A stretch of DNA of 64,000 bases, from NCBI GenBank assembly GCA_963402885.1, contig OY727098.1:22864717-22928716 (forward strand), given 5' to 3'. Positions 4,120 to 57,136 of this stretch are shown in pieces. The first letter of the stretch is position 1. Each line of letters opens with the position of its first letter. The stretch comes from Antedon bifida. Taxonomy: Eukaryota > Echinodermata > Crinoidea > Comatulida > Antedonidae. The translations under genes and the position numbers were made by a program. The notes beneath the pieces were generated by a model. It saw nothing but the letters and a program-made list of their open reading frames with translations. It was not told the origin of the DNA and did not search any database.

Positions 4120-7100
4120 TCACAATACGTATGAATGCAGTAATAATATTACAAATAGAAGGGACAGTATAAAGTTGTTAGGCATACAGTTGGCCGATCC
4201 ACCCGTGTTGGGTACGTAAGTGACATATATGTTGCTATATGCAACTTGCGGACTTGCTACTGTTGTTATAATTGAGTCTTGCTCATTTGGAACTGGTATT
4301 ACTTCTTTTGATGGCGTCGGAGAACTGGAAGAAAATCGTAAATATAATTTAAATTATCATATACACATTCAACATAAAATTATTATTTTACTGTTTATGG
4401 TATCAGATAAAATATGATGATTGGAAAAGTTTCAAAAATTAAATTAATCAAATCTATATATAGTTTTCATATGAATTTTTATATGATATCGATATACTGC
4501 TGTAACCCCAATCTAAGCGCATTGAACAAAGCGTACATATGTAATCAAATGGTAATTTCTCTATAATTTAAGCAATATTTATTTTCAAAAGCTAATTAAA
4601 GTCAATCAAAGTTCGCATCACATATAGAGCTATCTCTCACGTTTTCTACGAATGAAGCTAGCAGGGTGCAATTTTCGAATCAGATTTTTAATAACGGTAG
4701 ACAGACACGAATCCCAGCCCATCTGATCAACACCTCTCATCCTATGGGGCGGAAGTGGTGTAGTTGTTGATTTAAAGCCACCGATAGTTCTTAATTCAAT
4801 CAAGGAGTTGTCTTTATGGAGGTCAATTAATATATAGAGCTTAAATAAACAAGATGACGGCGATTGGTACACGCGTAGGGCCTTCTTAATTATGAATGAT
4901 GTTTTTCTTTCAGTTCACAACTGATTTGTACTTGAGGAGCGTGCAATGTCACTGTATTCATCATTCTCTTAATGCTACTGGCATCCTACTATACTATACA
5001 AATAATGAATGAGTTGAAAGATTGACTCTTCTAATCAAAAACAGAATAATTATATGAATTAATACCAAAATATTCTATTTTTTCATACATTTAAATTAAA
5101 TAGAATTAACACAGTTTTGTATGACTTTCATAAGAAGATCATAAGAATGACATATGTAAGTATTAAAGCCACTCCAAAAATTTAAAAAAATTATCCTACA
5201 TCCAGAGTAAACCTATAGAACAGAAGTAAGTTTTTTCTCACAAAATACCCTTACACTTACAGCAGGGCACATACCAACCATACTGTGCGTCTTGTACACC
5301 TTAAGGCATATCATACTACTACTGCCTAATTTGTTTGCATATTACTGTATAACTAACACCTTTCTAAGAGTATGTAGAATATGTTGAAGAATAGGAAAGA
5401 TGAAGAAACTACACAGCGATTATAAACGTACCCACTTCTATTTATTCTGTTAAATATTAATGTATTGTACTAGTCCATTAAACTCTAGGCCCTTTCTTTA
5501 ACTGAATAATGGTGCTAAACCTGGCAACACCTGAATAAGATGTTGGCAAACATGATTAAAGGGTTGTAGGTGTATGAATTCATTCAATTTAAGAACTTGT
5601 TTTAATGGTCAATATCAATGGTAATATAACACTACAGTACCAACTACTGTACTCTCCAATTCCCAAATATCTAATGGCAAAAAAACTGTTAAAAAACATT
5701 GTGCTAAGATTGTTGTCGCGGTTCGATTTTGTCCGCTATATTAGAATCTATTTTTAAAAAAGGTTTAGATTCTTTATAGTTATATAGCTTTCCTAATTCA
5801 AGGATTTTTATTTTATTTTTTGAAGTTTCAATTTCAAACAATAAATTCAGACTTACAGTATAAAATACTGTATAGTGCTTTCCTATTATTCAAGGATTGT
5901 TAGCACAATTTTAATGTTTCAATTTCAAACAATAAATTAGACTTATGTACCCAAATACAGTAGTTGAAATATATACTTAAATTCCTAACTCAGGCACGAT
6001 AATCTCCATTGCCAATATATATGAGAGTCATTTGAAACTATCAATTCCACTTGCCTATTACTTAACTGTCTAATATTTCTTAGTGGTCTATTGAAACAGC
6101 TACATAATTGTTTAGTATCATACTTATAGTGTTTACTTACTGATAAGTACAGACTTAAGAAGTTTTGATTTCATATAAGTATATTATAAAGGTTTACTAA
6201 TGCATATTAGTGATAGAAACGTAAGTGAATACATAGGTAAAAGATACTTAAAAGAGTAAACAGTGACTTGGGTATCTAACAGAAGACTTTGTTGGTTCAT
6301 TTTTAAGAAGTTTTGATTTCATAAAGTATATTATAAAGTTTACTAAAGTATACTAGTGATAGAATTATAAGTAAATACAATAAGATACTTAAGAGTAAAC
6401 AATGACTTTGGTATCTAACTGAAGACTTTGTTGGTTCATTTTTAAGTAGAAAACTACAGCAAAGAGATCAACAATGATTGGATAGAAGTGTGATCATTTC
6501 CCACATAAACAATAAAAACAAAATCATTTTTTTTTTCTGGTAAATCTTTTTTGCTGTACTGTATTCAATTAATTTGAGAAATAAATATTTGTTTGTATCA
6601 GTATATATTATGTTTTCAGAAGTTTTCTGGGTTTCTAAAGCTTTGTTTCCACTTGGGTAATGCAAAGCAATGCAAGGACGAAGGGCGTAAGTTAGTTGAA
6701 CAGTAGCAAACGACAGTTCAGTTGATCCATCGCATTGTGATAGGTCAAATTATGTGTGGCGCGCTTATGTCCTTGCAATACATTCAAGTGGTAACTACTC
6801 TAGCTCAATGTTCGATATGTAATGTGCCAGAGAAAACTGGTATACTGCCCTCTATCATATAACTTTATGTTTACACTTTAGAGGCAATGCCACATAATGT
6901 TTGCTCATTACAGGAAAAAAGACAATAAAACTTGGCAATCTCAAGTATAAACTTACGTTTCTTTTGGTAAATGAATCCATAATTCATTGAAGTTGTTTAC
7001 TTTTGGTTGTGGTGTTGTCTTTTCCTTGGGTCGACCGTTATTAAAATGTTTCCTTCTTATTCGTCTTTTGTTTGTTCCGTGTCTTCTGGTGGAGCTGTCA

Positions 7101-10100: not shown

Positions 10101-13100
10101 TGAAAGATAACAAATAGTGTACAGTACTGTATAGGACTACTTTTGTTAGTAGGAAAATATGACCACATAACCACATCTAGACTAGTGGAATGTTGGCCAT
10201 TGATGTATTAGGGTCTTTGATGCATGGAACATTGATTATTACCACTGTCTCATCTCTACAAACACACCTTTAAAGATTACTATACATTAAGACCTATTTA
10301 TTACCAGACCACCCTAGAAATAAATAAATAATTCCTTGTAATATCAAAATCTGAAAATACTCTGTCAGGAAACTTTATAAACATTTATTTCATGATTAAC
10401 TCATCTGTTTAGATCTAGTTCAAAGTCTCTGCTTGCTCTTTTTATCTATTGTTAACTATTTGTTACAGCACTTGTGTCTTCTTTTCCTTCAACTGTTATT
10501 TTTAATAAGGCAGCTTTATAAAAGCACCTCTTTTTAACCTGTATTTTTCTTTATATTCTGGAAGTTTCATTGCTAAAAGCAAGTTTAATTCTTTCTACAT
10601 ATCAGTATTTGTTATATATAAAATTACCTTTGAATGACTTCATCAGCAGGCACATGTTCAACTGTATAACCCTCAGATTTTAGTAGATCAATAACTGTGT
10701 GATTTCCAAGGAAATGACCTGCAAGAAAATAATATTAAAATATAATCTGGTTAAAAGAATGCAATGTTACAGTCAGTCTCCCTAAATTATAACAATTACA
10801 ATGCAAAATATAGGACATTAGTTTAAGTTTAGCACTTCGATTTACAAATGTTAAAAAAATTATGCATACAGGTTTCTATATTAAATCAGAAATGTTGTTA
10901 TTATAGTGCCACTTTATGGATAAACAGGCTTTTCATCTCTGAGGGAACAACAACACCTTTCCCTTTTAGGAGGAACACCACTTCAACCTCCAAAACAGTG
11001 GTATCACCCAGGTAAATTGGTTTGCTAAATGTCATCGATAAAAAGGTATATTACTACACTATTTACTATTCTGTCAAGAAACCATTTACACGTAAGGATA
11101 AATGATGAGTTGTTAATGCATGATGAATAAACCTACAGTAGTTAGGCACAGCAATAACAGTTTTTTTTATGCAATATGCATAATAGAGTGCTGATGTAAA
11201 TTCCAGATTTATTAAATTATAAAATATGGGAAAGATTAGTTAACACACATGTCACTGTATTTATATGTTTTAAGTGTTATCTTTAATATAGAAAATTGTA
11301 ATCTATTAATTAGGAAATATATGTATATAATAATCCTGTCAGATGCAGAAAAAAGCAACCATTTGTCTTTGCACAATTTCAATAGAGGGTTAAATTTGTA
11401 TTTTTTGTAAAGAAAGGTTGTGTTTTAAAATATGAAATAAATTCTCAATGTTTTGTACAACCGTCTTCTGGAGTTTACTTATTTTCTTTTGCTAACACAT
11501 GGTGTACTGTAACCACAAACGTAACTTTTGAATGAAGGTTCTTATATGTGTTGGTACTGTAGTAGTCATCAGAAAAAGAATAAAACAATTCATCAACACT
11601 TACTGGTTAGATAAAATGAATATTTTTCAGAATCATCAAAATATTCATTAAATAAACCATTTTTTTTTATTTTCTCAAAACATAACTTTACTAGTGTTTA
11701 TTCACCATGCAAACCTTTAAACAATATTGCATGTATATCATCTGATTATCATTTTTCTTGACAATTTCATAAATGACAAGAACAGAATTATGAAAATTCA
11801 CAAATAATTTGACAAGCGAAGTTTAAAAGATCATGACAATAATTTGTTAGGAAGATGTGCGTGTTGATTTTTATCTTTTCGAAATATACTGATCGATACA
11901 AGTTTCCTTACATGTCACAAAAAGCCATCAATTTTAAGCAATATAGGTAAGGTTGTCACATAATCTTCACTCTTCATTTCCGTTTGATAGAGTATATCTG
12001 TCCAACATAATCTTCCTATACTAGAATAGTGATACATCAGTATAGTATGTAGGCTGTAAGTGTCAGTTGAAATAGACTCGGTTTTATATCAGGAAAGGTA
12101 TAACATTATAAAATCTACCTTAATTTTTTTTTTTTGGACTGACGACATAAAAATATTTATGTGTTTAAATTACCGAACAATATAACTTACATATCACTTA
12201 CTGTGTCTAGATTTCAACTTCAGAGAGAAAAACGCTAAATCAAACCTAAGTTTTTTCCTCTGCCAATCAATATAATAAATGGCTAAATTTGCAAAGTTTA
12301 TGTGTCATAACTTTTTTAATTGAAGAAGACCTGTTATTACTTCTGTGTAGCCATACAACCATTGAGATGCTAACTCCAATGTACAACTGTACCAATTACA
12401 TTGACAACTGTACTGTAATTTAATTTGATTGATTACTGTTTAGCAATTTAATTTCATCTGTTTATTTAGGTTAATTGACACACATTTTAAACTGCTGTCA
12501 TTGTACGATATTATTATGACATTATGGTATAAGGTTATTAAAACTTAAAATTACATTTATATCTTCAGGTACAGTATTTTAAATGTTACCTTCATTTGAG
12601 TTTTTAATAGTTTTGCTAATTCATTTATTTTTCCAATCTAATCTTATCCGGAAATTGTCAAAATACCATAACTCCAGGATGCCGGGATTTGTGTACTGTT
12701 AATATCCAAAGCTGCACTTTCCCTTAGTCTATTGTTACACACTGGTCAATCCTGGTCAACAGGCTTTTCCTGCCTGGAGTGGGTACGTGTTCCATGTCAA
12801 TTACACTGTCTCAAAAAATATTTACTTATGAAGGTAGTTAGTCTTTTAAGTACGGTCAATTATAACCATGGTAACAATTCTATAAGTTATGCCGAGTCAA
12901 TAATTGTTCACAAATCTGTAAAGAGATTAAAAGAGTAACACAAACATGAGATGTTTCAATTCTGTCACGTTCCCCCTAATCATTTCCGTTCTATTGGAAA
13001 TCCGAAACAAGGCCACTCTACAAAAAAAGAAAACCCTGTAGAAATATGATAGTGGAATCCATTGGGAAATGGTGTTAATCTAATATTGAAATAATCAAGA

Positions 13101-16100
13101 CACAGTTCCAATCTAAATTTAATTTAACTGGATGTTTTCCTCTTGATTGATTAACTATATTGGTATAAAGCAAAATAAAGTGTTAGACTGTTGGATGATA
13201 TTCATTAACAGATATTTTTCAAATATATCCAGAGCCTCAAAATACTCAGGCGTATTATATGTAACCTCAACGTTAATGTCGGAAGCAATTTTTGCATTAT
13301 CTACATTAAATGATTCACTAAAAATAGGCTAAATAGCTTTTATCTGATTTAATGGTGACCACAAACAACAGCAATTTAACCAACAACTACAGCTTAATGG
13401 CTCAATTTTGCGGTCAAGCCATTTCATATGAAAAATCTGTAGACCTTTGATTTGATAAATAACAATGAGCCTATAAAATATCATTGTATGTAAAAGGTAT
13501 ACTGTGCATGAATTTCGACCATCAGGCTTCATAAATCTGATGAGTACATTTTAAAAAACATGATAGTATGAATCCCAGCATACTACTAAAGTTTATCGAT
13601 AAAATGTAGTCGTAAAATATAAGCGGGCAGATTGCCTAACATGAAGAATTACCACTGTTTGTTGCACAGATAATATCGTACAGACTTGTTATCACAAAAT
13701 ACATAAATTAAATTTAACAAGCAAAGCTTACGATGAGATAAAAACCAGACCGTTTAGAAGAGACCTGATTATGAACAAGTAAAGTTTTTCCAATCGGATT
13801 CTGCACATGCTCACATTGAACAGGCCAGAGCATAAGCCGGAAATGTACAACTTGTCTGAAATGATCAAAATGTCTATCTAATGTTTTTTTTTAAACTACA
13901 ATTGAGTCTGTTCAGTGATAGATCCTAATAAGGTCTTAAACATAAATTAAAATTTTAAATTAAAATTAAGGTTAGGCAATATATATATTATTTTAAACTG
14001 CTCCAACACACAAAGTGTACATCTACAGATACAGGGTACAAGCAGTCTTTGAGTCAGGCTTCCTCCTAGAAGACTTAGCATTACATTTCGTTGTTGATTA
14101 TTCACTAATTTATTGATCTATTATTCTTTATCATTCTAAAGTTGAAATAGTCAATGTTGAGGGAACTGAAAGCAGTCAATAACACAACATATTCATCATC
14201 ATTCCTTCACTTTACAAGTTGGGCTGCCAAAAACTACTGGGATCATTCTTTAATGTCACTCTCAATATTTTTTGTATTGAATATAAACATTAGAAACAGC
14301 TGACTGATGAAAAGCATCCTTCATTTAAAAGTACTTCATTAGATTGCCTAATAATTACAGTACCCACATGTTTATGCAATCATATTGTTGCCGAGTGTAT
14401 TTTGATTATAGAGCAAATAGAACTACTGGATGTACTTGTCGGTTTTCCTTTGAAACCAGCTAAGAGCAAGACTAAATAGATAATTGAAAAATAGTGCCGA
14501 TAACGCCTGTATAAACAATACACTTGTGGACATGAAGAGCTGTGCCCCGTTGAACTCAGACTGAGAACACCTTTACCCTATTTCATATCATCTACCTAAT
14601 TCATCACATCATCTGGTAGGCATAAAGCTATACCTGTATTTCTTTGCTTTTATTCAATTAATAGAAAAAGTCTACGCAAATGAACACAACTCGGTATATC
14701 CAGGCCATTGAATTAGTGATGATGATGTCGCCAATGATAATGATTAAAGACATACAGTAGATCAATATGAATGACGTTTGATAAAATAATTACTTTGTTG
14801 AGGTGATTTTATAACGATATAATAATTGTTAATAGTCAGGATGATTACAATGATTAAGGTTTAATGATGTTCTGAATACATGAAGAAAATAGACGTTAAC
14901 TGGTCTGCATTGGGCAGACCAAACTTCTCCTTGCAGTGCTTGTTGAAAATCGTAATGAGTACTACTAACTACTACTAAATTTGAGTAGCTACAGTACTGT
15001 AGATCTCCTCCTCATACCAGGCAAATGTTATTTCCAAACAAAATCCCTTAAAGGGGCATTCCACAGTATTTTTTTGTTACGGACGGGACATTTTTGAGAA
15101 TATAACTAGACATATCTTAGAAATAAAAAAGAATACAAGATTCAAAGTAGAATAAATGTATACATATATGGCCAATGTTTATTATGAAAGTCAAAAAAAG
15201 AAAAAAGACTGTACAAAAAAAATTTTATTATGAAAATTGTATGCGTCGCGGATGGGACGGCAAATGGACATGACTTTTGAGAAGGTTAACGTATTGTAAT
15301 ATTTCTCCTCATTTAAAAGAGATTTTAAAATTTGTTTTGTATTATTATGTTGCCAGATAGTTGTTTTAGATAACTGAATGTTAATTATAAAAATTGAACT
15401 GAAAATTTATTAATAAATATGATTTATATGTCGTTACGGACGGGACATTTCTAACGTCGCGGACAGGACAACTTTGTCCACGTTAAAAAATTGTATAATT
15501 TTGCTATTAAAAAAATTTAAAAATAAGTTTTTTACATCAATGTAATCTTTTATTTACAAATCAAAATATAATTCAACCTTTGAAACACTGTTTAAAAGTT
15601 TATGTCAAGTGAAAATATTAAAATTAATAAATATGAAATATTATTTATAAAAAATATAAAAAAAGCAATATTGTAAAATGTTATCAAAATATTTATTTAC
15701 ACTAATATAAAAGTTATGCTTGGCATATTAAACAAGACTTCAAGATATTAACACATTTAAGGAGAATCTTTAAAAATTGGCGTTGGCGTTTGATGTCTGA
15801 ATTTGTTAGTGGATCCAAGTTGCATCTGAAATTTCCTTCTATCCTTGCTTGGATTTAATAACTGTAGGCCTACTTCTATTAAAATTCAATCTTAATTATT
15901 TAGTATCTGATTTATTTATAAAAGGTTCTTGGTTGCAAATTCACCAAAGAATGAAATCTACAAAGCGATGACCGCACCCAATACTCCCATTCATACTGGT
16001 CATGTTGTTTTGGATTTAGGTATTGTTCTTTTGTGGATTGTTATTTTAAATACAGACCACAATGTTTTGTGATTAATAAACAGTTAACACCTTTGTACAG

Positions 16101-19100
16101 TACTTTTCAGCCTACAGTACAAAAACACTTTTTAATTCTTACAATATTGTCATCACATCCATAAAAAAAATGTCCCATCCGTAACATTCAATCAATTTTG
16201 ATGGTAATGTTTTTTTAATAAAATTAATTAAATCTATTACAATTTAATATCCTTAGGAGTTGAAAATTAAGATTTAAAATTAGGAATTAAATAACAATTT
16301 TAAAGCCATTACTTCAATAAACACAAGTGAGGAAAAACCCCCAATCGAAATGTCTCAGAAGTAACAATTATGAATTTTGAAACGCAAGTATGAAATTAAT
16401 AAACAATTTTAATAAAATACTTTATTATGAATAATTGGAGCTTACTTTAAAAAAAAGTAACTGCAGTATATTTATGGGCAAAAATGTTAACAAGATGCAT
16501 AGTTTTATTATGAAATAAAAAGGATTTAAATGATATGTGCCGTCCTTAACAAAAATGTCTGTCCCGTGCCTACGAAAAATGTCATCCATATATTTTTGAA
16601 TATGATATTTTCACCAAAAGTTTCGAAATATTTGTTTATAATGTATTGCATATAGTTTTAAAAGGAGAAAACAAAATATTAAATTGTGGTATCAATACTT
16701 TTAACTGAAATGTAAAAAACACCATAAAACTACTATTAAAATTTTGCGGATGGGACAATTATGAATTTTGAAATGTACATATGAAATTTAATAAACAAAA
16801 TATGTGTTATAAAATGCTTGAATATGTACAATAGGGACATAGAGTAACTATATCTGGCAAAAAAATATTTAAAAGATGCATGGTTTGTGAAATAATTAGG
16901 ATTTAAATGAAAAGTCCCGTCCGTAACAAAAATGTCCCGTCCGTAACAATATATTTTTGAAATATGATATTTTCATCAAAATCTAAAATTGTCAAAAAAT
17001 TTGTTCATAATATAATGAGATATAGTCCTCAGGAGGAGAAAATGAAATATCAAGATTTTTGCATCATTACTTTTAAAATAAATGTAAAAAAACCGCCTAA
17101 AACGTCGCGGACGGGACATTTATGAATTTAAAATGGATGTATGAAATTAATAAACAACAAAATTTAAATTAAATACTTGATTATGTATTATTGAGACATA
17201 AATTAACTATATCTGTTGAAAAAACAATATTAAGATGCATAGTTTATGAAATAAATAGGATTAAAAATGTCCCGTCCGTAACGCCAAATATGACTTTTTC
17301 ATATTTAATATTCAATAACTTAAAAAATCAATATCAGAAAAATAAAAAAAATGTTATTTAATAAACTTCAACATGTCTACTTTGAGAAATGGCCAAAAGT
17401 TACATCAAAATCAGTAAATGAAATTTTTAAACCCATGGACCAAATACTGTGGAATGCCCCTAAAATGTCCCTCCCACACTATTACTAATTCTATAATACA
17501 TTATTTTTTTCTAACCTAAATTCAATTGATCTATTCCTGTGCCGCCAGTAATTTGATAAAAATATAACACTGTTAATGGACTAATTTCAGCGATTGTTTG
17601 CATTAGCAAGCCATTCATCCTAACAAATTGATAATTTATCATTGCATCAATCAAACATGTACAATGATTTAAAGAGAAGATTTCAATAGTACAAATAAAT
17701 ATAGATATGCCAAGGTCGTGGAAGGGCACTAGTAGATAGGCCAGTTGTAACATGGGTGAAGTAATTGTAGTGGGAAGAACCGAACAAAAGTATTGTGAAA
17801 CAGGGGGTTAATTGAGAGTTGAGTTGGAAGGGGGAGTGGGATGTGAATTTTATGAAAAGTAGATTTTGTGTGTTACTGTAAAGCACACCATTTTAATGTA
17901 AACTTTTTTTAAAAGGCCTTTACCCTAATGCGATGTAGGTAAACTTTTATCACACAATAAAACAAAAATTACTGAAATAGTAGAAGAAATAAAATACCGT
18001 TCATATGATTCTTTTTGTTCAGAATTTACAAGCTGCAACATTCAGTTAAATAATTTATGGTAGTCTTTTAAGAAAAAAACTGTATATTTTATGAATAAGG
18101 AGGTTGGGTTAAAAATAAAATATGATAGAAGCATAGGTAAAAGCATTACAGGAGTCAGGATAATAAAAAATATTCACTGGACAGACATAATATCAGACTG
18201 TTGATTTGTGGTAGGGATAATGAAATAGTAGGTCTAATAGTACTAGAGGTAAAATAATTATAAGGCTACTAAAAAATGATTTGCTGACAGATATACACCA
18301 GACTGTATATTGATTTGGTCTAATGTATAATATAACAGAATGGTTTAATAATGTATTAATGTATATACAGGTAGTAGAAAATTATGGGGACACCTTCAGG
18401 AACCCACAAAGTGTCCCCTGAATAGAGGTTAGCAATGCGTTAAAAAATATTATAACATGGGTTCAAGGATGTAGCCAATCAGACACGCTGAAATGGTCAC
18501 GTGTGCATTCTTTACCTCTTCACTCTATCATTTCTCCTTGTTGTGTCCCCTGAATTAGAGTGAATTCTGAATAGGGAGGTCCCAATGGAGATGTTTCTAC
18601 TGTATAATTAGAAAGTTATAAAAGGATGGGCCCAACATTGTATAGCCTTTCTACTACCATACTGCCGACCGGGGATCAAATCCATCTCTGGACAGTACAT
18701 CTACTCATGAACAATACTGTAACATTCTGACAAGAAACAATTAATCGACAATTTAAAGATTGATTGAAGATTAAAATAAAATAAAAATATGAATGACAGT
18801 AAGGAGTACTAAGAACAGTTGTTATAATACTCAAAGTGAAGAAGACAGGATGTGTCAGAGATATTTTTACTAGATATACAGTATTAAGAATTTCAAGTGG
18901 AAAAAATCAGTCTTTTCATGGACTTTAAGTCTTCTTAAGTAAGATTTGGGCTTAGCAATGCCGTTTAAGTGCACTTGGCCATCCACAAACCTACTTAATA
19001 TTAAGATGCAATTTCCACTACAACCAAGGTTGATGACTATTCTTAATATGGTTGTGATTTAGAAGTAGTAATGGATTCAATTTGGGGAGTAAAGGTGTTT

Positions 19101-22100: not shown

Positions 22101-25100
22101 ATTTATACAGTAGTCACTCTTATTATTTACAGGTTTTACCAATTCTATCAGACAGTGTATTTGATGCCTTCATGATTTAAACTGGAATGAATTGATTAAC
22201 TGTATTAAATAAAAGAACATAAAGATAATCCAAATTACTTAGATTCACCAGCAGTATTATGTAGTAATAGTGGACACATTCTGTTAATCTATTTTGGAGA
22301 GTATTCCAAGGATGTCTTTGACAAAAGCCACCAGTTATCCTTATTCAACCAGATAACACTTCATTGATAAGCTTTCTCTTGAACAACAATACAAAATATG
22401 TCATGGCAGTTTACATGGATTTGTTGAATAAGCATCAAAGTGTTGCCGACATAAATTTTAGATTCAAGACCATTAGTTTGTGATTTGTAACAACAAAAGT
22501 CTCGGACATCAAACATGTTCCGTTTGTCAACTAAAAAGCAATGTTAAAATATTTCAAAAGTAAATCATTTGATTTTGACACTACAGCTAGTCATTGCACA
22601 ATATGGCTTTTTATTCAAATGAGTGTAAAAAAACTGATTGTAATGTACAATCAAAACTACCACATGTACAGTACAGTAAAATCTAGAGGGTTTTAATTTC
22701 ATTGTTACTTAATATTATATATCGGCCTAGCTGTACAGTAATTTCATTTTTCTTTTTTGACAACCGATGAAAAAATAAACCAATCTACAAGGTCTATTGT
22801 ACATTGCAAAACTTTAAGTACTGTATTTAAACATTACCATTTCATTGCAGGAGGCCTGCAGTACTATATTAAACCTATAGCACAGTTGTTTTATAGTAAA
22901 GACATAAAATCTAATCTAATAAAAGAATATAAATGGTTATTAATATTGCACCAATGAGATGAGAAAACGTTTTATAGGAAAAACAATTCAATTTTATATG
23001 GAGCAACTATGAAAGTGTGAACATTTAACTTCTTACTGTACTATGAATAGAACATAATCTGATCTATGGTAATGGTTATTAACATTGAGCCAATGACATT
23101 AAAGGTTACTACTTAATATGAATGTTTAAGGTGGTTTTGTACTGTGTGTTCGAACCTTCCTTTATTAATACCTGTACTGAGATATGTCATTACACTTTTA
23201 GTGGAAGTAGAGAAATCATAAATGCCAACTTGTTGTTGACAGCTGTAGGCAACAAATCACCTTTTTTAATTCACCTAATCTGTTCAAATTGGTAAAGATT
23301 TATTTGACAACTAAAAAGTAACTCTATTAAAAGACCACTTGAAAGGAATTTACTTTTATTTTCGATTCAGAGTTAAACTTTGTTCTTATGCATGCTTTAG
23401 CTGATCCGAATCATATCCTAGTTAAGCTCTGTCTACACTATCAAACTAGTTTGACAACAACAGTTTGATATGCCCAAATATGGTAGTGATGTGCCAAAAT
23501 ATGGTAGTGATATGCTCAAATATGGTAGTGATATGACATCATCATGTCCATATATGGGCACATCACATTTTGTTTGTCACATAATGTTTGATGGTGTAGA
23601 CAGAGTGAATGCAGAACAAGCTAATACCAGAATGTAACTCCCGATAGAGCAAAATTCCTGCATGCCCTGATAGACAGCATTTTATCTCCAAGAGAGAACA
23701 TACTGTAGATAGAGAAACATAGCTTTAATACACTAAAGAACTGAAAGACCATTGGAATGGAGTATGTCCTTTTAGATGCATGCAACAGAAATTTAGCTTC
23801 AATATCAATCAACCATATTTCACTAAACCAAAAGGGTTTAGAAAACTATAAATTGCTAATAAAGTGGAAATATGAATATATCTATTTTTACTAAAAATGT
23901 AGTACAGTACTTTTAGTAGTATCGCAATAATTTAGTAGTATCACAATAAACTAACTAACTATATCATGTTATAAATCAGAAAGCTAAACATAGAAAATAT
24001 GACAGATAAGTAGACAACTTAAGTACCTATGAGATGTAATGTTCTAAATTCTTACAAGTTGTTACAATCTAAAGCTTTACTACTGTAGCTAATGGATTTA
24101 AATAACGTATCCCATGGCGCCGTAACCAGAAAGGGATCTGTTGTTGATATACATAGCTTTGGCAATAAATAAAATTGACTGCCTCAGGTGTCTTGTGTAT
24201 GAAATATGATGTAAAAATATTATAGTATTGTAAACAACAACAAATCAAGAATAATAGAAATGTTCCTGTGAAATTAAAGGTTCCTACAGTAAATCAATGT
24301 ACAAGATTTTTGGAACTGATCAGGAAAGATAACAAGAATAGAATATTATACTGTAGTATTGTAAATGAATTAAATGTAACGAATAAATCTACAGTACATT
24401 TGAATAACCGGAATATTTTAAATATCTGAATGTGCTTTGAACACAGGGTTTATATTTCAAATTTTAAATTGAGTCTAAAGCTGGCATATTTTCAGCACAA
24501 AATCATTATGATGGTGAATACATCAAATTCTAGCAGGATACCTGTGGTTTGATTTTGATCAACCAGCCACTCTGATTGGGCTGCATGCTATCCTGCAGTT
24601 TAATGTGACCAATCAAAAGAATCGCTTCATAAGAATTCTGCATGATGTCTTGTATCTTGATCTGACCAATCAGATATACTGTAGGTAGTGGATACCTGGG
24701 GGTACAGCATCACAGTATGTTGTTTTTACACACCGAACCATATCCAATATGGTTCCAATAAATGACTCAGACACTATTGACTTCCTGAACAGCGTTTCAA
24801 TCTGAATGTCATGTCACGTCCGACTGTGAACGCCAGACACTTTCACATTTTGCAAACGCAAAATTGTCTCGCAAGCTTTTTAACATGAATATCGAAAATT
24901 AAATTTCAAATAAAACATTACGAAAATCATTAAACTAAAGGTACTGTATGGATGAGGATATGCAAATAGATCCCATAGATTCCTAACATTAATATCATTT
25001 AATGTACTTAAAAAAAATCATGCTTGTTTATTAGTGTCAAACTTTCAATACTTTAAAATGATATTCAATACGACTAGACAGTATAATAACTGAATGGAAT

Positions 25101-28100
25101 CAAAAATGTTCTGGATGTTCTTATTTACTGAGAGAAAATTATTAATTTCCAAGATAATGGTTAGTTTGTTTATATGTAGCTTTTAATGTTATAAATGTAT
25201 CATTTTTATTTTAAATAAATCCAAACATTCTATCTACTACTGTATCAAACTTTATGTGATGCGCTCATATACTGTATGGACATGATGATGATGTCATATC
25301 ACTACCATATTTGGGCACATCTCATTTGTTTGATAGTGTAGACAGAGCTTTAGACAAATTCAAAATACCAAACATATCATACAGTAGTATGATAGTACAG
25401 TAGTATTATTATTTGTAGGAATGTTAAAAGATGTAAATATTTCTTTATAGTTTTAACTGGATAAAAGACAATACCTCAATACCACATGAGGGCATGGTTG
25501 CGGACTAGTCCATTATGGTACAGGGGAGTTATAGGAACTTTTTACTTTCGTATCTAAGCCCTCCCCCTGGAGAGCATGGGCTATCGGTTTATCCAGATAA
25601 GCTACAGTAGGCACGAAATAGTCTACGATGTTTATTAGTATGCTTATCTTACCTGCACCAAAAGCAAAGAAGAAGCTTTTCTTGGGATATTCATCAAGCA
25701 ACTCTTTCACTCGCATCGCCATCCGACGATTCCTTTTAATGATCAACTCTTCTTTAAAATATTCATCAATCTCATTTGCTGTGTTATATTCAACGGACGA
25801 GAGTGTTGTGTTCAGCACACTTGCCAACTGAGCTGTATCACGGTTGAAAATTACCGAATCTAAATCTCCGCAATTATAATGTCTAATAAGGTCTTCTGTT
25901 GTATATGACATGTGGCTATCCCCAGATCGTAAACTTTCATGCTGGAAGAGTGTTTGGTTTAGAGCAAATAACACCTGAAAGAAATAGTCAATTTTATTAA
26001 CTATTACTACAGTTATATCTACACAACGATAACACATAACATTTTATTTGGAAACAAATAATGATGACAGTGCCATAAGTGTGCAATATGAACTCATCTG
26101 TTTATTAATATCAAAGTTGATATTAAAGTCAGAGGGCATTGATCAAGCTGGTCAAGTACTTTGACCAGTAGAAAGTGACCTTGAATCTGTAGTAGTTGCC
26201 CTTTAGGGGGTCAAGCATTGCCAATGTCAAGGTACTATTAAGTTCAAATTATACAGTAGTAGACAGGTGAGGAACATAATGAGTAAATAATTAAAGATGG
26301 TAGTAAATTGTGCAGAACTATGGTAGGACTCTTACAATTCTTCTTGGATGGAGAGAAATAGGCATACAGTATATACATATATATATATATATACTGTAGG
26401 TACTATTAGACACCAAATAGACACTATTATGTACAGGTAGTACAACAAGTAGTAATTTAATTCCGTTTTTTTGCTTTATACAAAGAAATATCAAAACTTA
26501 AAAGATCGCCACTAATGATGTAAACATTGTACATGATATTGAAAGTTTTAAAATATTTTTAAATCTGTACATTAAAATGTTTCTCTTAATATCAAACATT
26601 ATTGCCAGCTGTGATACAATCTTGACATCTTACCCCCTACCTATAATACAATAATGAAAAGTAAACAACTTTTCCAAGTGCTAAACTAAATTAGGTTAGG
26701 TACAGATGAAAGTACAAATACTGTATGAAGGACATGAATCAATAATAATAGTCTATAGGCCCTATCTCAATTTAGTCTAAACTGTAGGCCCTATCTCAAT
26801 AATAGTCTATAGGCCCTATCTCAATAATAGTCTATAGACCCTATCTCAATATAAATGTAATGCTAATTTACTGTTAACATAATAGGAAGCAACCATACAC
26901 TGTAAACTAAATTTTGTATGTTGATTATTAAGTTATGTAATTGATTTTCAGACACCTAAAATACCAGATCAATATTGCATTGACTGTGAGCTAAATGACT
27001 AATTAACGATGAACACTCTTTAAATGGCCCTAATTGATTACTTTATTGGCTGCTAATAACAATGTCCAATTATGAAATACTTATATCCAATGATGCACAT
27101 TAGCACATCATTGAGGAACATAATGAAATCTTATCATAACAGAACCTGTCTTAAAAATTCTTTGATCTTTTAAGTTTTACCTACCTTGCTAATTATAATC
27201 CATTAGTACAGTATGGAAGCACATTATGTGGATTAAAGGCCTACATGGAAGTACTGTATGAGGACCTTGAAGAAGGATAAAACTAACCTTGTGTTTCCAC
27301 TGCAAAAAATGATGTATTTTAATACACTGTATATCAGGTTAGACACAGAAATACAGTACCCCATGATTGTATTTGGCAGGTTACAGGGGTATATTGTAGT
27401 TTATTACTAAACAAAACTCAATTGTAGTCTCATTACTGTATCACGTGTTCTGCAAGAATTTTATCTTTCTGTATTACAACTTTTGTCATTCACAAAATGT
27501 TTTTCATTTTGATGATTAACATTTCTTTGAAATTTTAGTTTGTGGTTGAAATTTAGGCATCTGACCATTACTTGCATAAAATAATCAAATTTAAATCAGT
27601 TAGAAATTAATTTTGGTGTCTAAAAACGATGGCGTTTCCTGACGGTCAACTGGGAAGGAAATGAAATAGCGATATGGGACATTCCCAATAGGCATGCATT
27701 ATTATGAAGACACCATGAGCCAATTAAGGTAGCCATGGTTGCTACGACCATCAAACTCACCGCTGTAACACACAACCACCGACAGCCCTGCAGGAGTTTC
27801 AAATTAGTGATGTCTTCACAACTAACGTACCAAAAACTCAACGAATCGAATCCCCAGAATAACAAGTGGAATTAGTTTGAAAAACATAGGATTTGGTTCA
27901 ACCTACTTACAGAGTACATGTACCCATGTTGCTGTTTCACATGTTCTAACGTGCTTACATAAACAATATTAATACAAATCAACACAGATGGTCAGACATT
28001 TCCGCTTTTAATATCTGTAGGGCTTCCCTTCTAATGCATCTGTCAAAACACTTTTGAAGGACTCGTTAATAAATCTGGGGCAAGATTCAGTCAAAATATC

Positions 28101-31100
28101 TTTATTTTTTGGTATTTTGATATTATTCTGATCTTTTGCGGTCATATTGAAGCTTGTTAAATGTCAAGGTTGGATGTTCTTGCCTTAAATCTGATATTAA
28201 TTTGGACTTTTAAAAGAAAAATTTTAAGCAATCATGCCACTATGCCTTTTAAATTAAAGAAGCACAGCATCAGCTTAGCAGGGAAAATTACAAATAAACA
28301 ACTAGAGTACAGTTAGTACCATACAGTATAATGTACTGTATAGACTACAGTACAGTACAGTATGTCTTGTTAAAATTATATTCAATTCAGTACACATAAT
28401 TCAACTTCTTCAACTACTGTATACAGTGGAGTGCTGTACTTACTTAAAAAAAAATAGTACAGCTTAAAATACAGTACAGTTTAAGTACGTAAAAATTGTA
28501 AAATCTCTAAGGTATTCTGTATTCAACAAAAATTAATTTTCTTTTTTTTTAACAGTTACAGTATTACTGTATACTGGACAATTCAGTAAAAATTTAAAAA
28601 AATTAATACAGCATTACGCCTACTAGAGTACTAAAAGGATCAAGAATTTATGCTATCAACCTATATACAGTAATTTAATTTTAGAATACGTGATTAATAC
28701 CAGGATAGAATAGGGACTTACTAATAAAGCATAATCAACAGGGGATCAACTTGTTTACAGCATTCACTTCCACCCTAATACTTTGATTTACCTAATTAAT
28801 TATTCCATTAACTAAATAAATTTGGGCATACTTTAAATGCTGCTGTTATAGATTATGAAACGCAGTTTCAACATTCCTGGACATGCAAAGCAGAACACGC
28901 TTGGAGGCCAGAACATTCCAAACCAAAATTAAATACTTTTCGTTGAAACTGTGGACGTTGCTTAGCTTGCAGCGCTATCGGATGATACAACATCAATGAA
29001 TAAATGTTTCGTCACATCGTATTTGCTCAAATTTCTGCACACTGTATATTATATACAACTTTCTATTGAACATGCCATAATTTCAAAACATGTTTAAAAA
29101 ATGAATATACTCTATTTAGTATATCCACTCTACTGTAGTAAGAATATAAAATTGTATGAAAAACATGTATTGATAGCAGAATTAGGAATAAACTGAAAGT
29201 TTGATAAACTTTAATTTTTATCGAACATTGATGTACAGTAGAATCAATTAAATCAATTAATTAAAAAAAAGGTTTATGGTTCAATCACTGAGTTACTGTA
29301 CTGTACTGTATTAAAGATGTATTGTCCCCCTCAAAATTTATTTATTTTGTCATTTTATAAAGAGAAAACATAATTTTTTTGGGTGTTTTTCCTATGGGAG
29401 TGATTACTTTATTAAAACTACAAAATAACCTATTCAAAATTTAAATTCAATTTAATTAATCTTAATTTTTGACATTTTTGGGGGACAATACATCTTTAAA
29501 CTAATAAGAAGACCATCAAATCCAGTACTTCTAGACATGGTGTGATCTTAGTAAGTTCCATTCCCATGTTGTTGACAAGACCGATCAGCTGTAAAAATAC
29601 CTATTATTAGGGGGGCTTAATAGTCTTGAATGGGGTAAACACTAGGTATTCATTAGTAAATGTTTAGTCAATAGGATCAGGTTGGGATCCAATGTTACTG
29701 ACCTAAATGGATAAAAACACAGGTGTTTAGTTATATATCCACATAATACTATAAAGTACAGTATCATTGTTTACATTACATTCTAGACATTGAGTAGTAT
29801 ACTTCAGTTTATTACTTAAAATTAAATGTTCGCAACAATTTGGCCAATAATTTAAGATATTAAATCATACAATTCTATTAAAAATTAATAATTTTAGGTT
29901 TAAATTTTTCCCTATTAATGTAGTAAAACAGTACACTGTAGAATGACAATAGAGACTTCCTAATAACAAAACATCTATAAACAATTACATTTAAATGAGG
30001 AGCTCTATTGTTATTTTGCATTAAATGAACTGGCAGAGAAAAAGCTGTAAAAGAATTGTTAAACAACTCCCTGGTTCTATCATACTGTAGAAATTAAATA
30101 GGTCGATTGGACCATGGTTATATTATAATACCAATAAATATAGAGTAAAAAATATAGAAAATTAATTTGTTGAAAAAGTTATAATTTTAATACTAATAAA
30201 GGATCCATTTAAGTAAACCTTTACTTTCTTTATTAGGTTAAAAAAGAAAAAAAAATATTTTTTTTTTATTACATAAGTTTCCTTACCTGCGAAAAATTTA
30301 GTCCATTTAATGGTACACATTGTTCCTCTACTTTTTCGACTGCGCCTGTCCCTTTATTTGATCTATTAGCTTCTTGCGCTAAATATAAGTCCAACACTGG
30401 TATCCCCTTTGCCTTCACATCGGCTTCCGTCAACGAATTCACTAATAACATCACCCACACTGGCCGCTTTCTTTCCCAATTACCCGCAATGGCGTTAAAC
30501 AGATAATCAGCATATAAACCTTTTCCCTTCTGATCTTGCGTCATCCAAGACGGCATCATGAGTCTTACATATTCTAAATGACTTTTTAAGCGTAGGTACA
30601 TACTTTCAGGGAGTACATCTCGTAGATTCTCTCCCTGAGGTAACATTTGACAGTACGTTAGTTCTGATATTGTTTTAGGGTCCGTTAAGTCTAACTCAAA
30701 GAATATATTTTTACTATTTTGAAATGCACGTTTTGTGTTACTTGGTATGTAGTCCCAAACACGTGTATAGGGAACGTGAATTGTCCCAAAGAAATAAGCA
30801 GGAGGGCCTGGTTCTCGTCGAACACGCCATAGGAAAGAGTTCGTTTTACTCTGAAATATAATAAAAATATCAGTTAACTAGTATCTGTTAATAAAATACA
30901 AAATGGTATTGATTTTTCTGCTAGTACTAGAGATTCTGAATATTCTTAACATTAACATTCAAATATCAACAACTTAAATCTTTTTTTTTTCGTCTGGATT
31001 TGAGTTAAATGTTTTCTAAAATGTTGTATCCATCAGGTTTTCACACCCCTTTCAGTTCCAAAATGCCTCAATAGCTCTAAGATAATGGTTGTGTTCTATG

Positions 31101-42300: not shown

Positions 42301-45300
42301 ACAGTACTTTTCTCATGAATTCATATTTTAGTTTAATATATACTGACAACATATTGCTTGTAAATAAATACTAAAAATAAAATCACAGAACACAAAAGTT
42401 TAAGGTCATTAACCTTAAAAATGTGTCTCCAAAATGAAACTTGATCAGTATATAAGATGAAAGTCATTACCCAGCATTCATCTCACCTGGTCAATACTTG
42501 GACCAATACAACTCTTCTTTTATTACCAGAGTTCTGCCAATTTCAATTGGTGACAATAAGTCTCAATGAAAACTGGTAGAGAGAGTACTGAACTGAGGTT
42601 TATTTCATGTGCACCAATTTCAATTGGTGACAATCAGTCTCAATGAAAACTGGTAGAAAGGGTACCATAGAGGTTTAGCCTATTTCATGTGTACCGACAG
42701 TGTAATGAAGTAGTGAGATTTTGATCCCTTGGGTGCCACCAACTGACTGCTGCAAATGTCTGATCTTTGAGCTTGTACTCAACTTTTAAGAAGTGAGTGG
42801 GTTCGGATACCAACATCTACAAAGCCATTTACAATCAGGGTCACTGGTCTACTAAATGTAATTAAAATAATTATCAGGGGTATCTATAGCCATTTAAACA
42901 TTTCATTGTTATTCTACTTTATAGCAGTGCATTGACATTTATTTTCCTAAAGTTGAATTTTTTACAGCCATGTATCTTGAATGATGCCGAAGAAATAAAT
43001 AATAATAGTTTATTCTTTAATCGCAACTTAAATAGGCTCTAAATGTACTGAAATGAAATACCAGTAATGATTGATCTGTATTATTAGCGGAGTTTACAAA
43101 TAAATAAAAGTTAATTGATCATTTAAAGTTGTAATGAATGACTTTTAAAAGTATCGCTAGTAAATGAAACTAAAGCAGCAAGTCACAAACAATAAAAGGC
43201 CACATCTTAGAATAGAGAAAAAGAAAACTAGGCTTCGAATTCTGTAACAAATCTGTAGTCTTATCATTAAAATTGATGGTTTCTTAATAGATACATATTA
43301 AATCTATTAAAAGGATGATATATTGAAGGCAAAAGCAACCTGCCTATAGGCTAAAAGAGTACCGACACACATACTCACACATTATCAATCATTTAACAAC
43401 TAGCAAAGATTTATCTTCATTATTCCTATTGTTGGAAGATACATTAATGCTGTAATGCTGTATCACAGTCCTCAAGGTCAGATAATCATGATCAGTACAT
43501 GCTTATTTAATTATTGTGTGATTAAATCGCAATTACTATTAAAGGTTAATGTAATCATGGAGGTATAAAGATAATGAATTAATTCCTCCATGATGCTGTA
43601 ACATTAATTCAAGGAATTTTGGTGTGATACATGCCCATGCAGATGTAAGCAAAGAGCACAATCATCTCTTAAGCTCTGTCTACACTATCAAACTAGTTTG
43701 ACAAAAAAGGGTGATGTGCCCAAATATGGTAGTGATATTCCCAAATATGGTAGTGATATGACATCATCATGTCCATATATGGGCACATCACATTTTTTTG
43801 TCACATAGAGTTTGATAGTGTAGACAGAGCTTTAAATTGCTAGACATTTTTAATAAAAAATGATATGGGTGTGGTAAGCCTAGCCTGACTTGGTATTATA
43901 TCATATGGTACAACAGTAATTTTAAGAGTGTATGGTCATTACTATTTTCAATCAACATACAAAAACACATAAAAAAAACTATGTAAAGACATTTAAAAAA
44001 CATAAAAATACTGTTTTCATTGTTTTATTTTTGCTGATTCAATAAACCATTAGTGTCATATTTTTATAAGTGAAAACAAGTGTTTTTCTGGTTATTTACT
44101 GTTGGCAATTTCATACTTCCGCAACAGAGACAGCAAAGTTGCAACAACAAGTTAAAAGGTCACATTAAACTAAATTGATATAGTATAGTACTTTGGCAAA
44201 AATCTCTGGGTGAGAATGGGTTTAATTTTTCAGTCACCAAGCTCTACCAGGTGAAGATAAATTATGGTATGAATGTATAGTATGTCTATTCATTTTTAAT
44301 TGTCAAATATTATTAAAATTTCAAATGCAGGTTCCTTTACAGAGTTCCAGTGGGACCAATACAGCTTGTGGTTTGATTTTTTCTGGTTGTCTGGTCTGGT
44401 TTTGATTATTTAAAAGTTGCTTGTTTTAAACCATATTTAATGTGATTATTATTATTTTAACTTAATAATTTAAAACTGCTTTAAATACTTTATAATCTTG
44501 TAAACATCATTTACTTAATGAGTGGTGATAATTGTTATAATAAGCATACTTGGTATATATGTTTTGCAATGTTTTAGAATACAGGAGGGAGGTATCATTT
44601 AATTATTTACAGATTGAAAAATAACATGTATTATTTAACATAGACATACATAGATTCTCGTTATTTTATTTGCCGATTGTTGGTCACCTGATACAAAATA
44701 AGTACACTATTTTATGCTCGCGTCATTATATTTAATGTGCCGGACAAAAAAGTTTTATTATTTCTACAGAAAATGTTTAAAATGCTCCTCATTTTAAGTG
44801 TTTCAAACAAAATATAACGATCAATGAATAAATTTGAAAACAGGTCAGTTGAATATGGAACGGAAATGCTTTTTTACATTAATAAAAAAAAACTCCCCCA
44901 AAAAACACAGATATATCTGTTAAGTGGTTTGTTTTCATCACATTTCAAAAACCAATACATGTACTTAATATTGTAAATAAACTACAGAGGGCTCACTTCC
45001 AATTAAACAAACAGTCACAACTGCTCACTAAGAAAGATTTAATTGAAACTGAAATATTTATATACTGTTATTCATACTGTTTAGTTTTTTTTACAGAAAA
45101 CAATGAGTTCATACATAAATGACATTTGCTTTGTACATCAGAAGACAGCAATAAATAATGATGTGTAGACTTACCCCTTCCAGGTCCTCCCCTTCCTCTG
45201 CCTCTTCCACCACCTCCACGACCTCTGCCCTTTGAAATTACTTCTTCTTTCACCATGTCAATAACTTCATCAGGAATTCTTAAGTACTTTATTGTACTTC

Positions 45301-46531: not shown

Positions 46532-49500
46532 ATGAATTCCAAACGTGGAGAAGTGCATCTTAGTAAAAAAGATGAATTCACCACATCAAAACACAAGTCA
46601 AAAAAGAAATTTAAATCAAGCAAAATTAATTCCAGGGTTAATCAGATTTATTTTGAGAAAGAATTGATGCAAAAATTCAATTCTTCTTTCAATGAACGTA
46701 AAGGTTTTCTTCATGGTAGGTCTATTTTTAAAAAGGGTGGTATGAAGAGATTGTCTTCACTCTGCCAAATGGAGTGTTATTATAATGATGATGTAATATC
46801 TTTATTAATTTGCATATTTTTGGGTTTATTTTGTAGATGAAACTGACGCCCAGATTCACAGTGATCCATTTACTTGTTGCGTTTTGCCCAATTTTATTGA
46901 AAACCATGAATTTACTGAAGATCTTCAGGATGAGCTTCTCAATCTTGATTTTTTAGAGAAGTCTAACGACCTCTATAAATTCCATCAGGTACAGAACAGG
47001 ATATTTATGTACAATTTACAAATGACAATGTATGCAATGTTTACATTTACTATACTTTTTTTTTGACCTCAAAATGTGTGTGTGTTCGACTGTTCTTACT
47101 TTATTGACAAAGTATTGGACCTTTGTGACTTTACTAACTGTTTCATAGCTTTAACAATAATTGTGTTTTTTTAACATTTCTTTTATTATTAAGTGCTGCG
47201 GCTATGCTACTGTAGGCTTTGAAAACTCAAAACAATAAAAGAACAATCAAAAAGCAATCACAAATTACTAAATAAAAAACAAAATGATTTAAAAATATTA
47301 TTAGGGTCAGTACAATGTAGCTTTGCATTATTTTTTAATTACCTTTCAGAGCCAAGCCTTACAAAACCTTTCCAACCCGAACATAACAGCATTGAAGTAA
47401 GTTTGATAATAAAAAAAAAAGAAAATTCATTTCTTTACATTTTCAGACTAGAAATGAATCTTAAAAATGAAATATCTCATGCAGAAGTGTTTACAAAGGC
47501 AAAGTAACACTAAACTAATCAAATGTCAGGATAATGATATGGAGCTTGTGGGCTAGAGTTTTTTGTTCTTTCATCCTAGTAGGGCAAACATCTGACAAAT
47601 TACTTAGCTCCCTGACTCAAAGATATTACCATACATTACTTTTATTACAATAGTTTTAGGAAAAAAAAAAACAAATATCCCTATTTATTTATAGGAATCT
47701 TTTGTACCAAGATTTCACCAAATGGCTGACGTCGGTAACCAATATCAGTTTTACAGAAACTGTTGACATGACATGTGCCAAATATGAATATACTGGTAAG
47801 CAAGATTATCATTGTTAAGCTCTGTCTACACTATCAAACTAGTTTGACAAAATAAGTTTGATGTGCCCAAATGATGCTTGGCTACCACTCCAATGGTCCT
47901 TATTTTGCAATTACACATTCATATTTAATATAGATCAAGATTCTAAATACTTTATTGTCTATAACCAGAACTGTATTTTCCCTTTTATTACACCACAGAT
48001 ACTCTACTTTGTCATGACGATGAACTTGAAGGAAGGAGAATAGCATTCATATATTATTTGGTACCACCATGGAATGAGGAAGATGGTGGCTCCTTGGATT
48101 TGTTTGATGTTGATGGTATGGAATTCTACCGTCAAAAGTATATTAATCAATAGAATACAGTTAGGTGCATTCTATTCTACATTTATTTTTAAAAAGTATT
48201 GTTATTATATACTTATCTAAGCATCACTAAAAAATACATTTTCTATAGTTCACATACAGATTGAAACCTTACATTTGTTCACTTTAAAAATTACCTTTGA
48301 TCTTTGTTTGATATGCCTCCTTCTAAACTAATTCCTCCCTGGTTTACCCATGGATGACCAGGGTTGATTTTCTGCAGTTCTCAAATATACAACCATGGAA
48401 GAATTACTGATTCATCCCTGATACAACTGTGTTTACATTTCATTTATAAGAAGAAGTGTTCATTCATGCAATGGATGACCAGAATATATTTTCTTCATTC
48501 TGTATTTTCAACTTATTTTGTATAATTGATATATTATAGATGTTGGACAACCTAGTACTATTGCCAGGTCACTGTTTCCAAAATTCAATAACCTTGTTTT
48601 CTTCGAAGTTAATCCAGTTTCGTTCCATCAGGTATGTAGGGATTGCAGAGAGCCATTCAGGATTTGTCATTATACAGTTTAGGACCCAAAAAGAGTCCCT
48701 TTAATAGGAGTGTCCCATGAATAGGTGTTGTCTGTAGAATTAAATCATGTATTGACTCATGTTCATTTCTTGGTGTCCCAAATTGTATTTACAAGCATTG
48801 TTTATTTTTATCTTAAGAATTTGAATTATCAAATGTTACTACAGTATATAGTGATAGAATTTAATCTTTATTTCAGGTAGCAGAAGTTTTATCAAAGAAT
48901 AAGTGCCGTCTATCAGTAAGTGGGTGGTTCCATGGGGAGACATTAGCAAGACCACCACCATTTGTGGAACCAAGAAAGATTCGTACATTTCATCAAGAAG
49001 TTAAGGTACACAATACAGCATATTCCAGAGACACACCTATTAAGGAAACATTTTATTGTTAAACAAATTGGGTGCAATGTATTTTAACACTTCATCCAAC
49101 CCCATATGTCCCGAAGATGTCCGCTTAACAAAGAGTATAATGTACTATAATTTTGCCTGGATAATTTGATGTATACCAGTGGCAGATCCAAGATTTTGAA
49201 ACAAAAGTGGAGTAGGGGAAGGGCCCTGATGATGTCTTATCTTCATTATAATTTTCAAAGTTTAGGGGAGGCTGGGCCTGCTGCCCATATTGAATCTGCC
49301 TATGCATACAGTCCATACTCAATTTCATTAGCAAATGGCCATTGTTACAAACAACAATTCTTATATCATAATTATTATACAAATCATAAGTGTGGAACAT
49401 TTTTTTTCTACAGGAAGAAATGTTTTATGATTGGATTAATCCATTGTATTTGGATTTGGAAAATCAAACCGAAATCATGGATCGTTTTCAGGATGATTCT

Positions 49501-56059: not shown

Positions 56060-56220
56060 GATCAGTTAGCTCAGTCGCCTCAGCGTCGTGTTGACAACAT
56101 GTATGTCGTGGGTTCGATTCCCACGCTGGTCGGTGGAATAGAGTTAAAGGTATGCGACCAACTGTGTTTGGGGTTCACAGAACTATACGTCCCTCTTTCC
56201 ACCACACATCATGATCAGAT
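56060..56220 (+). repeat. tRNA-derived SINE with GAC-anticodon-like head
   Basis: Bases 56060-56131 fold as a 72-nt tRNA cloverleaf. The acceptor (GATCAGT with GCTGGTC) has all seven pairs, two of them G-T. The T arm is a perfect GTGGG/CCCAC with loop TTCGATT. The anticodon loop is TTGACAA. Box A (TAGCTCAGTCG) and box B (GGTTCGATTCC) are good. Against a working tRNA: a GAC (Val) anticodon is not used in animals, positions 13-22 and 27-43 mismatch, and the D loop lacks GG. The 90-base tail has an imperfect GGTGGAATAGAG/CCTCTTTCCACC stem. ATGATCAG occurs at both ends (56059 and 56211). Confidence 0.65.
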
Positions 56221-56480
56221 TTAGTGACTTTATTTCAATTTTATATCACTGTGCTCCACTGGGGCCATATTGGGTCCACTTGAGCACAGCACATTAACAT
56301 ACGAAACGATATTAAAATTGAGTGACTTTAATTCTATTTTATATCACTGTGCTCCACTGACGCCAAATTGGGTTCACTTGAGCACAGTGTATTAACGTAC
56401 GAAACGATATTAAAGTAGTGACTTATTTCTATTTTATATCACTGTGCTCCACTGGCGCCAAATTGGGTCCACTTGAGCAG
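56220..56480. repeat. Tandem repeat, about 95-bp unit, 2.7 copies
   Basis: Each unit runs GTGACTTT..., ATTTTATATCACTGTGCTCC, ACTGRCGCCAAATTGGGTYC, ACTTGAGCAC, ATTAAC, TACGAAACGATATTAAA. Units begin near 56222, 56321 and 56417; the third is cut off after ACTTGAGCAG. Inside the unit, GTGCTC and GAGCAC form a possible stem. Confidence 0.9.
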
Positions 56481-57106
56481 TTACCGTAGTACTATTTCGT
56501 ATACAAAAAATACTAGATTATCAAGAAATTATTCTTTACTTTGTGATAACAACAATGAATTTAATTTTATAAAAACTTCACTGTGCTTTAACAAGAATAT
56601 GTGTTTATAGGTTTATGTGGTCTTAATGTATAATGTTAGATTATTATTTTTTATATTAAATAATGTTTTTGAACACATTTGTGGCCGCCATCTTTTTGGT
56701 TCCCCTCCTTGTTTGGAATCACTTTTCAGTCTGGAGTACGCCCTCTAGCCTTCGGCTAATTACAACTCTCTGGTAGCGATACCCTTCACTGATAAAAACA
56801 TTGGGAGAACATTCGTGTGGTGACGATATAGAGGGTGCTTTATAAAGAAACCTTAACACAGTAGTTTTACCATGGTTATACAAAAGTACGATACTATTTT
56901 GGAGGCGTGTTTAGAATTTTATATATCAGCCAACTAAGAAAATGATACTATATAGGCCTAGTACAGACTTGTAATGTCCCAAAAATGTATTGTTAACTAC
57001 GGTAATAATATACTCAATATTATATTATAATTATTATATTAGAATAAATTATTATTAGAACTTGGGAGGAGAATCTTGAGGGGAGATCGTGACTTTAAAT
57101 TTTTTT

Positions 57107-57136
57107 GTCACATAAAGTTTGATAGTGTATACAGGG
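57107..57136. mobile_element. M1 MITE, terminal fragment F
   Basis: Only TTTGTCACATAAAGTTTGAT and AGTGTATACAGGGC remain of the right end. Confidence 0.5.

Follow-up and report, generated by a model that had tools for sequence, protein, structure and literature searches.

A repeated subterminal word and its spacing in a young non-autonomous transposon family of Antedon bifida and its sister families

In the CACTA transposons (En/Spm and soybean Tgm), family-specific subterminal words of 12-20 bp, placed in both orientations near both ends, are bound by TNPA; the word differs by family, and defective copies are moved in trans (PMC2613891). In the P element each end has its own fixed distance from the inverted repeat to the binding site, and a subterminal repeat is present as well; a zebrafish relative has 400-bp spacers (PMC7776569). 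Sola2 elements have 4-bp AT-rich target duplications and short inverted ends of 12-13 or 21 bp (PMC3627910), the foldback transposon Tetris is non-autonomous with internal tandem repeats of ~220 bp (PMC4079207), and the coral CMITE is a non-autonomous family with an unusually conserved interior (PMC2872659). We studied an element of 2408 bp that resembles each of these systems in some traits. It occupies positions 15053-17460 of a 64,000-nucleotide stretch (contig OY727098.1) of the crinoid Antedon bifida, the whole of which is called here the window, and has perfect inverted ends of 19 bp with a TAAA duplication on both sides. A word repeated within it has counterparts of other sequence, with closely similar spacing from one end, in sister families of the same genome.

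The 16-bp word had 11 matches with up to three mismatches in the 64-kb window, five of them exact, on both strands and all within the element, as compared with 0.25 expected; none of 100 shuffles reached 11. Two forms of it, T (GTTACGGACGGGACAT, beginning GTTACGG) and C (GTCGCGGACGGGACAT, beginning GTCGCGG), mostly alternate with a step of ~163-208 bp. The GC content of the element was 0.26 and the observed/expected CpG ratio of its spacer 0.40, versus 0.59 for the whole window. The right half consists of three tandem units of ~365 bp (230/352, 233/351 and 273/345 identical columns), and word and spacer are conserved among them to about the same degree: identical word positions were 32/47, 36/47 and 38/48, against 197/305, 196/304 and 236/298 in the spacer. 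Alignments of left-half spacers with the right half scored no better than chance (the scores were reached by 22 and 79 of 100 shuffles), though the words match. The end sequence GGGGCATTCCACAGTATTT was found, at up to three mismatches, just at the two element ends (0.01 expected in 64 kb), and the identity of the arms ends after 20 bp. The element contains no open frame of 90 amino acids, and no RNA family matched it at E values up to 1. A sequence-only reading of the window had described the inverted ends with TAAA flanks, the GC-rich word in both orientations through an AT-rich interior and the three units of the right half; all were confirmed.

The same reading had proposed a comparison with the host genome, and this showed that the element is not single-copy. 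In 315.6 Mb (27 contigs) the exact T word occurred 401 times (reversed-pattern control, 0) and the 24-base right end, end 2, had 129 matches with up to two mismatches (control, 0), 94 being exact among the 100 matches listed. Thirteen copies selected by words were 97-99% identical, a fourteenth row, L041, being left out of this comparison; older copies, ~80-93% identical, were also present. Both ends were found in 10 of 12 further copies picked by the right end. Exact 4-bp duplications flanked 20 of the 25 copies having both ends, in 17 different tetramers including TTAA, TATA, GGCC, CGAA, TGCA and GGGA. The element is thus a member of a recently mobile, non-autonomous family, named A: it is multi-copy, its copies are 97-99% identical and they are flanked by 4-bp duplications. 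The sequence-only reading had taken it for a non-autonomous mobile unit. Two loci, L039 and L040, align with the A element over just a part of its length. In addition, the matches listed included many T words at ~12.3-17.9 Mb of host contig C7, often as doublets 20 bp apart, mostly on one strand and not in the usual arrangement of four words; variant ends that begin with CGGG occur close by. They may represent a local subfamily, or a segment that has spread within this contig.

Related families, B to G, were found in the host genome. Family B is 4040 bp long and has an intact frame of ~700-702 amino acids in three nearly identical copies (702 in locus L023, where comparison with two other copies showed that the B element has its own ends and an ATCA duplication). 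The B protein had 55 matches in the host genome, three of them identical almost throughout and several being open frames with 29-34% identity. Both B and F encode an open transposase frame, and across families these frames measure 664-862 amino acids. When four families were aligned, D350, D429 and D470 were invariant among other invariant residues, suggesting a putative catalytic triad of DDD type, and six cysteines were invariant as well. Searches of Pfam and NCBIfam with the transposase gave only matches below the cut-offs, the PDB gave one weak match (E 0.022), and no relatives were found in viral contigs. Target duplications of 4 bp were present in 5/5 B copies examined, 1/1 of G, 1/1 of C and 2/2 of D. 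Two nearly identical elements of 5.46 kb, L068 and L069, have 862-amino-acid frames and ends of 25 bp, are flanked by the duplications ATAA and TCTT, and carry a word of their own, GTGACGGARATGAC, in a different layout. Beside a B element on C12, the minus strand of L063 carries an open frame of 925 amino acids, which perhaps belongs to another mobile element.

Words were also sought without regard to position, the coding part being masked by approximate coordinates, and their counts were compared with 15 shuffles of each family. The best words were GGACGGGACA in A (11 occurrences; shuffles reached 6), ACGGAATTAC in B (8; 5), ACGGARATGA in D (11; 6) and TCACTCGCAT in F (8; 4). In family G, met in locus L061, the best 9-mer count was 10 versus at most 8 in the shuffles; its word, GTAACTAATTGAYA, has no CpG, so the CpG is not essential and is incidental in the word. 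The interior of B or F held no word at up to two mismatches.

Offsets were taken as the distance of word starts from the tip, allowing two mismatches, or three for A. At end 1 they were 23/192/380/403 in A, 13/192/388/402 in B, 13/192/389/404 in F and 13/194/392/406 in G, and at end 2 they were 359/524 in B, 359/524/540/571 in F, 358/524/545 in G and 178/341/513/533 in A. The G offsets were measured after the B/F ruler had been seen, and they fit it. Random placement at end 1 gave no draw as good in 20000 for five of the six family pairs and P=0.00025 for A-G; at end 2, P was 0.0001-0.00045 for the pairs of B, F and G. These P values are naive in that they treat the families as independent.

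From these words and offsets, this non-autonomous element is probably a member of a clan of cut-and-paste DNA transposons making 4-bp target duplications. The young family A would be moved in trans by a transposase of the clan, and the 16-bp word would be the family-specific binding site of the clan's DDD-type transposase; for B, GTGACGGAATTACA is the predicted docking word. The sites would lie on a nearly fixed subterminal ruler, at 13-23, 192-194, 380-392 and 402-406 bp from the tip of end 1 and at about 341-359 and 513-547 bp from that of end 2, where several transposase subunits would assemble and bring the two ends together in a single complex of defined form. There would be one word per family, changing as a set between families while the offsets stay. 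The three 365-bp units of A resemble amplified copies of one end-2 module, with T words on the minus and C words on the plus strand, which would have been duplicated in the right half. Binding to the word, selection on the spacing and mobilisation of A in trans are what we infer. A bolder version, which we hold tentatively and rate somewhat below even, is that the clan ends form a scaffold of nucleosome scale and base-pair precision on which a synaptic complex of several subunits assembles, with steps of ~179, 196 and 14 bp at one end and of 359 and 165 bp at the other; each family's sites would be rewritten in concert with its transposase, and sister families would be mutually deaf while keeping one geometry.

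Several observations weigh against the proposal of a transposase site on a ruler. Host-genome searches did not find A's own transposase: the 6485-bp copy in L023, a candidate autonomous A, owes its coding part to the separate B element inserted in an A element, and the degenerate transposase next to copy L030 lies beyond the A ends and is a relic of B-like type. Families C and E had no significant word (3 and 6 occurrences, with 5 and 6 reached in their shuffles), and the D words are in another layout than those of A, B, F and G. No exact target duplication was found in the two F copies (0/2). The end 2 of A fits the ruler poorly (P 0.04-0.14 for pairs with A). The second F copy, L066, has end-1 words at 13/191/388, the fourth being missing, and end-2 words at 323/456/504, and it counts against the ruler unless its end 2 suffered deletions. 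Two A copies with perfect target duplications have incomplete end-1 sets: in L041 the words at 192, 380 and 403 are missing, in L036 the one at 192.

To these is added the fate of the words after insertion. In the 12 A copies picked by the right end regardless of the word, the unbiased test, word CpG sites differed from the consensus at 21/573 bases versus 6/355 for spacer CpG (Fisher 0.11) and other word sites at 22/1409 versus 290/24023 for spacer (Fisher 0.26), so that no slower mutation of words than of spacer was found in this set. The sequence-only reading had suggested that the words outlive the decay of their surroundings and had named equal decay in aligned copies as refuting it; for inserted copies, equal decay is what we found. 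Its suggestion that the words bind a transposase is still the best reading, from the words and offsets of the sister families, but the protection of inserted words was not borne out. Since words have no protection in single copies, any selection would act on the lineage that keeps moving. The other two comparisons, of 13 copies and of 21 loci, are biased because the copies were picked by exact words. In the 13 copies, differences were 34/2264 in the word and 295/28090 in the spacer. Four older loci of the 21 showed 11/61 differences at C-word CpG versus 21/71 at spacer CpG, and 13/115 at other C-word sites versus 204/1189 at spacer G/C and 418/4288 at spacer A/T, a slight word-spacer difference at most.

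Further points against the ruler favor the notion that the words do bind a transposase while the shared offsets are a relic of common descent, with substitutions, few net indels and no selection on spacing. B and G spacers had a similarity of 0.47 in one interval (0/500 shuffles), and B and F spacers, which are at or slightly above background (0.35-0.39 vs 0.31-0.35 shuffled), showed a weak excess in some intervals (reached by 7 and 6 of 200 shuffles); the tips of B and F are clearly homologous by alignment. Because of this residual similarity the families are not fully independent, and hence the P values given above are naive. We nevertheless consider descent without selection unlikely, as F and G spacers are at background similarity while their end-1 offsets agree within 0-3 bp, and A too keeps 192 and 403. 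Moreover, the word intervals of B and F agree within 0-2 bp whereas their other intervals differ by 60-150 bp: the stop codon lies 410 bp from the end-1 doublet in B and 260 bp in F, and the start codon 574 bp (B) or 634 bp (F) from the 524 word.

The words could instead be host-factor or regulatory sites (a promoter, a silencer or nucleosome placement of the transposase gene) unrelated to end recognition. The ~180-bp step is the size of a nucleosome and such sites need not be perfect, but the words differ between families within one genome, so an element-coded protein fits better than one host factor, and non-coding A, G and short B elements retain words at both ends; we regard this alternative as improbable. 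Functionless by-products of tandem duplication or satellite growth in a decaying element would explain why the right-half units are tandem duplicates with words as conserved as their spacer and why inserted words decay like spacer, but the spacers of the left-half words are unrelated and B, F and G repeat the layout with words of their own, making this account very improbable indeed.

Inverted ends and 4-bp duplications in independent copies place the element among cut-and-paste transposons with 4-bp target duplications, and its 2408 bp exceed the strict size of miniature inverted-repeat transposable elements (usually <500 bp). Its ends (GGGGCATTCC) and 4-bp duplications exclude CACTA/EnSpm (CACTA/CACTG terminus, 2-3 bp duplication), duplications such as GGCC, CGAA and TGCA exclude PIF/Harbinger (3-bp TWA), and TTAA, the target of piggyBac/Kolobok, was seen in just 1 of the 20 exact A duplications, which speaks against these groups. 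Unlike the element, the CACTA transposons of the cited sections have CACTA ends with a 3-bp duplication, and their repeats, 4 in 159 bp or 24 in 732 bp, form stem-loops, whereas here words are single or paired with ~180-bp steps and shared offsets (PMC2613891). The P element differs in its 8-bp duplications, 31-bp ends and one 10-bp binding site per end (PMC7776569). A Foldback element would have long inverted arms of repeats, while here the arms are identical for 20 bp and left and right spacers do not align; the repeats of Tetris lie inside such arms, whereas the tandem units here are on one side of an element with 19-bp ends (PMC4079207). CMITE is related to piggyBac, and the cited sections describe no dispersed word in it (PMC2872659). 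The Sola2 transposase (888 amino acids) is comparable in size to the frames found here, but no subterminal words are described in the cited sections (PMC3627910). The element has the 4-bp duplications and short inverted ends of Sola type, an agreement that covers ends and duplication only. The protein, too, may be Sola-like in its look, and the element is a candidate member of that superfamily. A CENP-B box was ruled out for the word by spacing. In viral and prokaryotic contigs the loci that matched the word (2, 10 and 2) had one word each and were taken as chance, and the end-1 17-mer had no match in viral contigs. Among the papers judged by title and the start of the abstract, none was recognised as dealing with this element or layout.

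Minus-strand TIKI parts bracket the element, with TraB exons on one side and an exon-like reading on the other (Table 1). By these readings it is located in an intron of a TIKI gene, in agreement with the sequence-only reading. Elsewhere in the window there is a second dispersed repeat family (23414-23605, 25246-25359, 43661-43837, 47807-47872, 49830-49914 and 57099-57137), whose copies have common stretches in both orientations, foldback-like, with a 21-bp minisatellite, TGATATGCCCAAATATGGTAG, in two of them. Tandem arrays lie at 56219-56479 (~98-bp units) and 6155-6449 (~139-bp units), with units 86-94% alike. In the whole window TAGGCCTA is ~30-fold and GTACTGTA ~16-fold over expectation; the former may point to an echinoderm or hemichordate host.

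Table 1 Coordinates of the element, its words and tandem units, and the bracketing TIKI readings in the window
Feature	Position	Strand	Remark
Next TIKI part, exon-like reading, other side of intron	10640-10716	-	approximate
Left target duplication TAAA	15049-15052		matches right copy
Left inverted end (end 1), 19 bp, GGGGCATTCCACAGTATTT	15053-15071	+	identical to end 2
T word, exact	15076-15091	+	offset 23 from end 1
C word, 3 mismatches	15245-15260	+	offset 192 from end 1
T word, exact	15433-15448	+	offset 380 from end 1
C word, 2 mismatches	15456-15471	+	offset 403 from end 1; doublet with 15433 word
Tandem unit 1	16164-16549	+	
T word, 1 mismatch	16170-16185	-	
Decayed C-word place in unit 1	16350-16367	+	alignment with other units
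T word, 2 mismatches	16535-16550	-	
Tandem unit 2	16549-16926	+	
C word, 3 mismatches	16743-16758	+	702 from end 2
T word, 1 mismatch	16912-16927	-	533 from end 2
Tandem unit 3	16926-17282	+	
T word, exact	16932-16947	-	513 from end 2; doublet with 16912 word
C word, exact	17104-17119	+	341 from end 2
T word, exact	17267-17282	-	178 from end 2
Right inverted end (end 2), 19 bp, GGGGCATTCCACAGTATTT	17442-17460	-	identical to end 1
Right target duplication TAAA	17461-17464		
TIKI/TraB exon frame, one side of the element's intron	25513-26043	-	
TIKI/TraB exon	30269-30877	-	

Subterminal repeats, known in several transposon groups, raise the questions of how many sites are needed, of the rationale of their spacing and of the divergence of recognition between sister families. 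In this genome four families share an end-1 ruler while differing in their words, and two of the four encode open transposase frames. As a natural experiment, they allow the separate evolution of binding specificity and of geometry to be followed, and they could supply parts for gene-transfer tools that work independently of one another.

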